Assembly (NCBI GenBank): GCA_937925855.1
Contig: CALAMO010000023.1
Coordinates: 1 to 64,000 of the forward strand
Length of the DNA: 64,000 bases
DNA from: an uncultured Thiotrichaceae bacterium
Lineage (GTDB): Bacteria; Pseudomonadota; Gammaproteobacteria; Thiotrichales; Thiotrichaceae
Reading direction: 5' to 3'
The notes beneath the pieces were generated by a model that made no database searches, had not been told where the DNA came from, and saw nothing but the letters and a program-made list of their open reading frames with translations. Positions within the stretch are counted from its first letter, which is position 1; each line of letters starts with the position of its first letter. A program made the position numbers and the translations under genes. Below are positions 32,425 through 34,749 of this stretch, piece by piece.

Positions 32425-34749
32425 ATGAACATGGATGAAAGCGAAAACGAACTCTTCAATAAGCTGGATACAAACCTTTACTTAACCGGTAATGATAAGC
32501 AGACCCTGAAGAGTATCTTCAAAGGTTTGCAACAGCGTTTATTGGAACGCGAAGATAATCTTAAGGGCTTGTCTGGCGTGCTGTTGGAGAAAGACGGCCA
32601 TGTGCGGGTGCGCGATGCTCGCATTGATGAGCGGGATGATCGCTTGGAAAAACTGGGTCGGCAGCTGGCAGAGAAAGATGGGCTGCTCAATCAGCTGGCG
32701 CAGGAACTGGCTTCGAAAGAGAAAACCTCCAATCAGCAAGCGGCGGCGCTAAACAAAAAAGACGGTTTAGTGCAGCAGCGTGATGAAACATTGGCCCAGC
32801 GGGAAGCGCGGATTAAGCAGGTGGAAAACCGCTTAGTCACCTATGAGAAACAGCTACAGGAAAAAGAAACGCTGATTCAGCAGCGTGATCGGTTGATGGA
32901 AGACAAGGATCGCACGCTGCTGCGTATCGATCAGGCGATTCAAAATAAAGATAAGCAGATCCAGGGGCGGGATGAGAGCCTGCAAAAGAAAGACCAGCTG
33001 CTGTTGGAGCGGGATCAGCTGCTGAAAGAACGGACGCGCCAGACCTTGGAGCAGGAGAAACTGCTGAAGGCGCGTGATTACCAGCTGGAAAAACGTGATG
33101 AAAATTTAAGTGAACGTGATCGGCAGCTGAGCGAACGCGATCAGAGGGTCAACGACGCTCAGCAGCATATGGCGGCGTTGAACAAGGCGGTGCAGCAGCG
33201 CGAAGCCGACATCAGCGCGCGCGATACCCAGCTTGAGGCGAAAGAGCAGCTGATTACGGAGCGTGATCATCGGCTAGTGGCGCAGCAAAAACAGCTGGAA
33301 GCCCGCGATTTGGCGGTGCACGAGCGTGACCAGTTTTTACAGGCCCGTGATAAGGCGCTTGTAGAGCGCGATAAACAGCTGGCAGAGCGTGATCAGGCTA
33401 TCCAGAGTCGGGACCAGCAGAGCTATAAGTACATTGAGTCGCTGGAGAATCTGGAAACCTTATTGCAAGATCGTGATCTGCAAATTACCAGCCGTGACCA
33501 ACAGTTGACGCTGCGTGATAAGCGTATCACTAAAACTGAAGCTGATTTGCAGGTGCAGGAAAAAACGCTGTCGGCACGGGATGAGCAGCTGAAAGCGCGG
33601 GACCAGCAGCTACAGCAGCGTGATACGAGCCTGAATGAGCGCGACCAGAGTCTGCGCGACCGCGATCAGCGTATCACCAGCCAGGATGTCCAGCTGAAAG
33701 AGCGCGATAAACAGCTACAGCTGCGTGATGCCCAGCTTAAGGGCCGCGATGAGACGGTGAGTGAGCGTGACGATCATATTCGGGCGCGAGATGAAAAAGT
33801 CTTGCAGCTGGATGAGCAGCTTCAGGCGCGGGACAACAGTATCGCAGGGCGCGATAAGACGCTGACACAGCGTGATCAGGCACTCAGTGAGCGTGAGGCA
33901 ACGCTACAGCACCGGGATGAACAGATTGCGGTGCGTGATACTACGCTTAAAGCGCGTGATGCCAGCATTCAAGCGCGTGATCAGCAGATTCGCGGGCTGA
34001 CGGATGAGCTGAAAAAGCGTGAGCAGACGCTGAGCGAGCGGGATAGTGAGTTGACGCAGCGTGAGGAGCGGGTGCGTAATCTTGGCCTAGATGTGCATAT
34101 GCGCGACCAAAGCGTGGCCGAGCGCGATGTCCAGCTCCAATTGCGTGATCAGACCATCCAGGATCGAGATGAGCTGGTTAGTTTGCGTGAAGAAAGTATT
34201 GCGGAGCGCGACAGCACCATTGCCAATCGCGATGCTGAGCTGACCCAGCGCAATAGTGATTTACAGCGGCATGAAGCGATTGTGCAGGCGCGTGATGCCA
34301 CCATTGCCAGCCGAGATGAGCATCTGTTAAAGCTTGATCAGCAGCTACAAGTGCGTGACCAGCAGCTACAGCAGCGGGATACCGAGTTAAAGGCGCGGGA
34401 TGCTACCCTGCAAGCGCGCGACGCCACGATTCATAAGCGCGATCAAACCATTGTGGATAAGGAAGCACACATTCGCCAGCGCGATGAAAAACTGCAGGCC
34501 TTGACCCTGCACATCCAGCATCTGGACAATGAGATGAAAGACGTGCGCGTATTGCTTAGCCAGCGTGATGAGCAGCTGCGTCAGCGTGATTTGGTGATTG
34601 GGCAGCGTGACCGTCAGTTGGATAAGCTCGATAAAAGCGTAACGAAATACGCCGCAGATACCAAGGCGAACTTTATTCAAGGCGTGGTGATTGGGCTGGT
34701 GATTAGTTTGGCGCTGGTCCTGGGACTGCGGATTCTGGCGCTGATTTAA
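32425..34749 (+). CDS. giant tail-anchored coiled-coil protein with 101 R-D-x-x-L heptads
   Basis: No known family recognised. From the ATG at 32425 the protein has 774 residues. A 41-residue N-terminal segment (ESENELFNKLDTNLYL) is followed by 101 consecutive heptads with no register break, about residues 42-748. The consensus is R-D-x-x-(L/I/V)-x-x, and by hand count about 56 heptads start with Arg-Asp. Heptads lacking Arg often carry Leu there, so that position is a core site. The C-terminus (VVIGLVISLALVLGL) is one membrane helix with no tail, so the rod should project into the cytoplasm. An in-frame GTG lies 13 codons upstream, but the ATG has a GGGA element. It may form an operon with the genes that follow. 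Function is unknown; scaffold or spacer is the natural guess. Confidence 0.85.
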   Translation: MNMDESENELFNKLDTNLYLTGNDKQTLKSIFKGLQQRLLEREDNLKGLSGVLLEKDGHVRVRDARIDERDDRLEKLGRQLAEKDGLLNQLAQELASKEKTSNQQAAALNKKDGLVQQRDETLAQREARIKQVENRLVTYEKQLQEKETLIQQRDRLMEDKDRTLLRIDQAIQNKDKQIQGRDESLQKKDQLLLERDQLLKERTRQTLEQEKLLKARDYQLEKRDENLSERDRQLSERDQRVNDAQQHMAALNKAVQQREADISARDTQLEAKEQLITERDHRLVAQQKQLEARDLAVHERDQFLQARDKALVERDKQLAERDQAIQSRDQQSYKYIESLENLETLLQDRDLQITSRDQQLTLRDKRITKTEADLQVQEKTLSARDEQLKARDQQLQQRDTSLNERDQSLRDRDQRITSQDVQLKERDKQLQLRDAQLKGRDETVSERDDHIRARDEKVLQLDEQLQARDNSIAGRDKTLTQRDQALSEREATLQHRDEQIAVRDTTLKARDASIQARDQQIRGLTDELKKREQTLSERDSELTQREERVRNLGLDVHMRDQSVAERDVQLQLRDQTIQDRDELVSLREESIAERDSTIANRDAELTQRNSDLQRHEAIVQARDATIASRDEHLLKLDQQLQVRDQQLQQRDTELKARDATLQARDATIHKRDQTIVDKEAHIRQRDEKLQALTLHIQHLDNEMKDVRVLLSQRDEQLRQRDLVIGQRDRQLDKLDKSVTKYAADTKANFIQGVVIGLVISLALVLGLRILALI
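32548..34668 (+). repeat. 21-bp periodic coding repeat (101 heptads)
   Basis: The DNA encoding the heptads repeats every 21 bp, usually as CGTGAT, CGCGAT or CGGGAT plus a CAG/CTG pair. Arg and Leu codons vary between units, so the array is old or selected at protein level and not a recent perfect tandem amplification. Confidence 0.85.

Follow-up and report, generated by a model that had tools for sequence, protein, structure and literature searches.

A length-conserved RD-heptad protein with a C-terminal membrane anchor in Thiotrichaceae, a candidate coiled-coil spacer

The stretch of DNA analysed here (the window, 64,000 nucleotides) belongs to the 3.57 Mb, 96.6% complete genome of a Thiolinea-like member of the Thiotrichaceae (G000) and carries a gene for a 774-residue protein in which an unbroken array of RDxxLxx heptads leads into a hydrophobic C-terminus. 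Comparison with orthologues indicates that the length of this rod has been held constant by selection while its sequence drifted, the strongest evidence being the behavior of a paralogue that serves as an internal control. We give about an even chance to the protein being a cytoplasmic, C-tail-anchored and probably homodimeric parallel coiled-coil spacer or tether. The carriers are sulphur-oxidising bacteria of the Thiothrix group. Spacers that reach this far are familiar from eukaryotes and have seldom been reported in bacteria. The comparisons draw on a sample of the order that comprises one family with eight genera (g1-g8) and 63 genomes; g1 is Thiolinea, and we infer that g2 corresponds to Thiothrix and g4 to Thiofilum (PMC10532065). 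The features are as follows.

32425..34749, + strand: whole gene, 774 aa plus stop (open reading frame and orthologue comparison)
32425..32526, + strand: N-terminal tip, residues 1-34 (orthologue conservation, paralogue head matches, AF2)
32527..34647, + strand: 101 uninterrupted RDxxLxx heptads, residues 35-741 (heptad parsing)
32539..32754, + strand: length-variable zone, residues 39-110 (four divergent orthologues)
32755..34746, + strand: fixed-length zone, residues 111-774 (gap-free against all near-full-length orthologues except the longer one of G019)
33043..33045, + strand: conserved polar a layer, Thr207, Thr in 13/13 (orthologue layer comparison)
33421..33423, + strand: conserved non-aliphatic a layer, residue 333 (orthologue layer comparison)
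34060..34248, + strand: conserved band, residues 546-608 (orthologue conservation)
34672..34746, + strand: C-terminal membrane anchor, residues 750-774 (hydropathy and alignment)

Heptad array, core layers and membrane anchor

The reading frame is open throughout 32425-34749 on the forward strand, and its start at 32425 matches that of the orthologues, in which the distance to the KLDxN motif is equal. The sequence-only reading had described 101 heptads (707 residues) without skip or stutter, about 56 of them beginning with Arg-Asp, with Arg or else often Leu at position 1 and Leu, Ile or Val at position 5: its coordinates and counts all hold on recount. Fifty-six of the 57 RD dipeptides in the window protein fall into a single heptad phase, whereas 2000 composition shuffles of the rod gave a mean of 10.7 RD with at most 8 in one phase. 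Over the 102 heptads of residues 35-748, position 1 is occupied by Arg (65), Leu (13) and Lys (10), and position 5 is L, I, V or M in 98, the exceptions being Ser102, Thr207, Ser333 and Thr746. The rod contains neither Pro nor Cys in 13/13 orthologues. No lag was strongly prominent in a search for long internal repeats, and promoter and terminator scans returned sites no more frequently than shuffled sequence did.

Because the spacing is 4 from Arg to Leu and 3 from Leu to Arg, we assign Leu to position a, Arg to d and Asp to e. The a/d spacing that had been claimed for the Arg and aliphatic positions is supported by orthologue substitutions: the Arg site accepts, besides basic residues, mainly Leu and also Gln, Ile, Ala, Tyr and Phe, whereas the Asp site accepts mainly Glu, Asn, Gln and Thr, a pattern that argues for a core position of the Arg. 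The constant pairing of R with D could be accounted for by a salt bridge from Arg at d to Asp at e of the opposite chain. How a core stays stable in which Leu layers alternate with Arg-rich d layers is a structural question that the protein raises. Across 13 orthologues, 96.7% of the 1326 residues at position a are aliphatic, and only layers 207 and 333 are consistently non-aliphatic within the rod; residue 333, which is Ser in the window protein, is Gly in 10/13 and Asn or Thr in the others, residue 95 is an a layer with Thr in 4/13, and residue 746 sits at the C-terminal end. The d layers without Arg are kept at the same positions across orthologues: one g2 (Thiothrix-like) protein has 15 hydrophobic d layers, and each of them has a hydrophobic counterpart in the window protein (P about 1e-14), where 19 of 102 d layers are of this type. 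Heptads of equal index in orthologues have 3.7 of their 7 residues in common versus 1.9 at other indices, which indicates that the repeat is old and not subject to ongoing homogenisation.

At the N-terminus, the tip consists of a short helix, a KLDxNxYLTxxDKQxLK turn and the beginning of the long helix (AF2: helix 3-16, loop 17-21), and it is common to the rod and to the rpoH-linked paralogues described below, whose heads match with E down to 1.7e-11. At the other end, the membrane helix that had been proposed coincides with the sole hydrophobic segment of the protein (residues ~750-772; Kyte-Doolittle 2.66, next best elsewhere 0.04), which contains Gly, is preceded by Lys and has one Arg close to its end. 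No signal peptide is apparent from inspection of the N-terminal sequence and the hydropathy scan, so the protein has the single C-terminal hydrophobic segment and the signal-free N-terminus of a tail-anchored inner-membrane protein. Together with the positive charges before the anchor, this places the rod probably on the cytoplasmic side.

AlphaFold, applied to a single chain with a four-sequence alignment (pTM 0.23), predicts helices at residues 3-16, 22-189, 205-336, 350-537 and 577-770 with moderate confidence and low-confidence breaks at 190-204, 337-349 and 538-576, two of which adjoin the non-aliphatic a layers 207 and 333. Such a single-chain model cannot decide between dimer hinges, fold-back and artefact. 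Fully extended, 707 residues at 0.1485 nm each would amount to 105 nm. The proposal of a continuous rod of about this length stands as far as the heptads are unbroken, but that it is unbroken and rigid as a helix is made less certain by the non-aliphatic layers 207 and 333 and by the low-confidence breaks predicted near them and at 538-576.

Length constancy and the rpoH-linked paralogue

All 18 orthologues from g1 and g2 measure 772-775 aa. Neither the 33 cross-genus pairs (49-56% identity) nor the 55 pairs within g2 (79% mean identity) contain an internal indel, with the pairs not being independent of one another. Four more divergent orthologues of 761, 764, 765 and 717 aa differ within residues 39-110 only, by 7+7, 7+3, 7 and 57 residues, respectively, apart from 1-2 residues at the extreme N-terminus. 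The remainder, residue 111 onwards, aligns without gaps at 44-59% identity, and in nearly all 60-residue windows no shifted register does better than the unshifted one. The rod of one g6 genome (G019) is longer, with 927+ aa on a cut contig and ~1017 aa if an overlapping C-terminal fragment on a second contig is joined. In G047, a stretch of unresolved bases close to the C-terminus has produced a spurious frame of 972 aa. In G427 (L102), rod, comEC and paralogue are all fragmented, probably by sequencing errors.

The internal control is a second RD-heptad family with the related tip KIxGNRFLTxxDRQ, which lacks a hydrophobic C-terminus and adjoins rpoH in most of these genomes (the neighbor was confirmed at three loci, one of them that of the G019 rod itself). 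Its members range from about 370 to 681 aa in 11 g2 genomes and reach about 911 aa in g1. A pair of these paralogues contains on average 3.2 internal indels, and 106 of the 177 indels have a length divisible by 7; for ComEC, which is encoded adjacent to the rod, the average is 1.7 per pair. Changes in length thus occur readily, and the paralogue tolerates them. Since heptad-sized indels arise and survive in a paralogue of like composition in the same cells but not in the rod, rod length appears to be under selection. The two families amount to a paired natural experiment, in which homologous RD-heptad proteins of the same genomes are of fixed length and anchored in one case, and apparently soluble and free in length in the other, which makes length selection directly testable via heptad number. 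Paralogue loci are L043:7753-9462, L044:6495-8804 and L107-L126, with changes mostly by whole heptads. The gene is truncated or split in G040 and G028, and short queries did not detect it in the window's own genome.

Candidate functions and comparison with known systems

Coiled coils whose length is conserved despite sequence divergence are typically spacers (PMC5082667), and the rod is a new family of this known kind with an unusual host and an unusual Arg-rich core. C-terminally anchored golgins of eukaryotes, for example giantin, likewise combine a long coiled coil with a membrane anchor and keep their length while the sequence diverges (PMC5082667), and these hallmarks of a golgin-type tether are found in the rod at the level of sequence. 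Unlike golgins, the rod is bacterial, has far more regular heptads and Arg-rich d layers, shows no detected sequence homology to them, and resides in a host not known to have vesicle traffic. Bacteria have a membrane-attached coiled-coil spacer of about 50 nm in Omp-alpha of Thermotoga maritima (PMC5082667), which spans the periplasm, whereas the rod, with no apparent signal peptide, is probably cytoplasmic. Crescentin, FilP and cyanobacterial CCRPs share the long coiled coil and a possible scaffold role; the rod differs from them by matching none of their families in the library, by its stutter-free fixed heptads and by its tail anchor. The C-terminal inner-membrane anchor without signal sequence recurs in ElaB and YqjD of E. 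coli (PMC6389858). The rod has no Pfam or NCBIfam match to the families of these two proteins. ElaB and YqjD are short.

The tail anchor, the apparent lack of a signal peptide, the selected length and the conserved layers in combination fit a cytoplasmic spacer or tether. In this mechanism, the membrane segment would fix one rod end in the inner membrane and the heptads would keep the small tip at the N-terminus a set distance away, at most about 105 nm and less if there are bends at the two polar layers (207 and 333), so that the tip could tether or position something at the far end. The rare Leu, Tyr and Phe d layers among the Arg layers might lock the register of the two chains. The earlier interpretation as a membrane-attached spacer, ruler or scaffold is partly supported, in that strict length constancy fits a spacer or a ruler. 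Speaking against a spacer, discrete conserved bands (residues 546-608 and, further, near 56-72, 140-216, 406-447, 672-699 and 714-742) point to contacts along the sides that a pure spacer could do without; in addition, there is no conserved partner gene, the AlphaFold model contains breaks, and the G019 relative is much longer. A molecular ruler of filamentous sulphur bacteria is conceivable, if tentative: two identical, parallel chains, locked in register around a core of alternating Leu and Arg, would hold a cytoplasmic structure roughly 60-105 nm away from the inner membrane, a distance encoded genetically in the number of heptads and retuned in the G019 lineage.

Fixed length could also be needed for packing and not for reach. 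In such a laterally packed scaffold, which we regard as a possible but lesser candidate, membrane-anchored cytoskeletal rods akin to crescentin or CCRPs would lie side by side under the membrane at a fixed stagger and stiffen the filament cell or its septa. The conserved bands agree in position between g1 and g2 (101 heptads, r = 0.53), and a suggestive conservation period of 19 heptads came out of an exploratory, post hoc search (P = 0.014 versus AR(1) surrogates; g1 alone P = 0.25); moreover, the named relatives grow as filaments (PMC10532065), and coiled-coil-rich proteins are enriched in those cyanobacteria that are filamentous (PMC7002697). The period is weak, however, the b, c and f positions have diverged strongly among orthologues, and the long-range charge periodicity typical of packing rods is not clearly present along the rod. 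An unlikely third geometry dispenses with the long rod: the chain would fold back at the polar layers into an antiparallel four-helix bundle with helices of about 20-29 nm each. The four long AlphaFold helices, with two of the three breaks beside layers 207 and 333, suggest this arrangement, but they derive from the low-pTM single-chain model, the breaks are of low confidence, the helices are unequal, no solved structure is alike, and neither Pro nor a register break marks a turn. We attach hardly any credence to a scaffold of sulphur-globule pockets or of sulphur oxidation. The group of the named carriers is described as forming sulphur inclusions (PMC10532065), but two genomes with the rod, the window's own (96.6% complete) and G031, yielded no dsrA, and rod-less genera have it; the rod does not follow reverse Dsr in its distribution, lacks a signal-like N-terminus and is unlike Allochromatium SgpD, an exported protein with prolines at regular intervals (PMC10386293). 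Most relatives have dsrA, and G000 and G031 possibly represent a sub-clade without reverse Dsr.

Database matches, gene neighborhood and distribution

No family model in Pfam or NCBIfam describes the rod protein, PDB searches by sequence and by fold (Foldseek) gave no significant match or solved structure, and no published account was found among open-licence papers. The view that the protein is undescribed accordingly withstood the library, homology and PHROGs searches. A phage tape measure, named by the sequence-only reading as one of the findings that would overturn it, was sought in PHROGs and viral contigs and discarded: there was no PHROGs match and no viral relative, and the neighbors are metabolic genes. 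Pfam and NCBIfam matches to RNase_Y_N, GAGA_bind, FlbB and SMC reflect coil composition. Prokaryotic SMC scores 45.9 bits against a cut-off of 567, and its ATPase domain is missing in the Pfam scan. The resemblance to the N-terminal region of RNase Y (PF12072) lies in a coil that passes the Pfam gathering score, but the best match covers only coil residues 607-693, there is no KH or HD domain, NCBIfam RNase_Y reaches 40 bits against a cut-off of 454, and the membrane segment of RNase Y is N-terminal, whereas the rod is anchored at the opposite end. On 32425-34746, both RNase_Y_N and GAGA_bind exceed their Pfam gathering scores through coil composition and are a likely source of misannotation.

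In most g2 genomes comEC precedes the rod gene, and g1 genomes carry the rod gene at several other locations. In the window it lies 37 bp upstream of a P-loop protein gene, which is followed by metA, and the P-loop/metA cluster is found near the rod in G034, too, in the other orientation. Because no operon partner is conserved across the rod loci compared, the rod probably acts as a single gene. The cluster itself (window:34787-37868; inverted in G034) encodes the P-loop protein, metA and a protein of unknown family; the P-loop protein belongs to no NCBIfam family and has a sub-threshold AAA_18 match only.

The tip domain occurs in four of the eight genera (g1, g2, g4 and one g6 genome) and is absent from g3, g5, g7 and g8 in the 63-genome order sample. 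The gene is also present in a named relative, Thiolinea disciformis DSM 14473, which is identical to the same-genus genome G018. In a sample of 370 gammaproteobacterial genomes, those outside the family returned only weak coil-type matches, which we rejected as unrelated coiled coils that match mostly in the coil and not in the tip; named by eye, they look MotB/ZorB-like, OmpA-like, methyltransferase/glycosyltransferase-like and others. Two unrelated gammaproteobacterial proteins (L050, L051) combine a MotB/ZorB-like N-terminal membrane segment with a long heptad coil of the ERDxxLxxLE type and a C-terminal domain.
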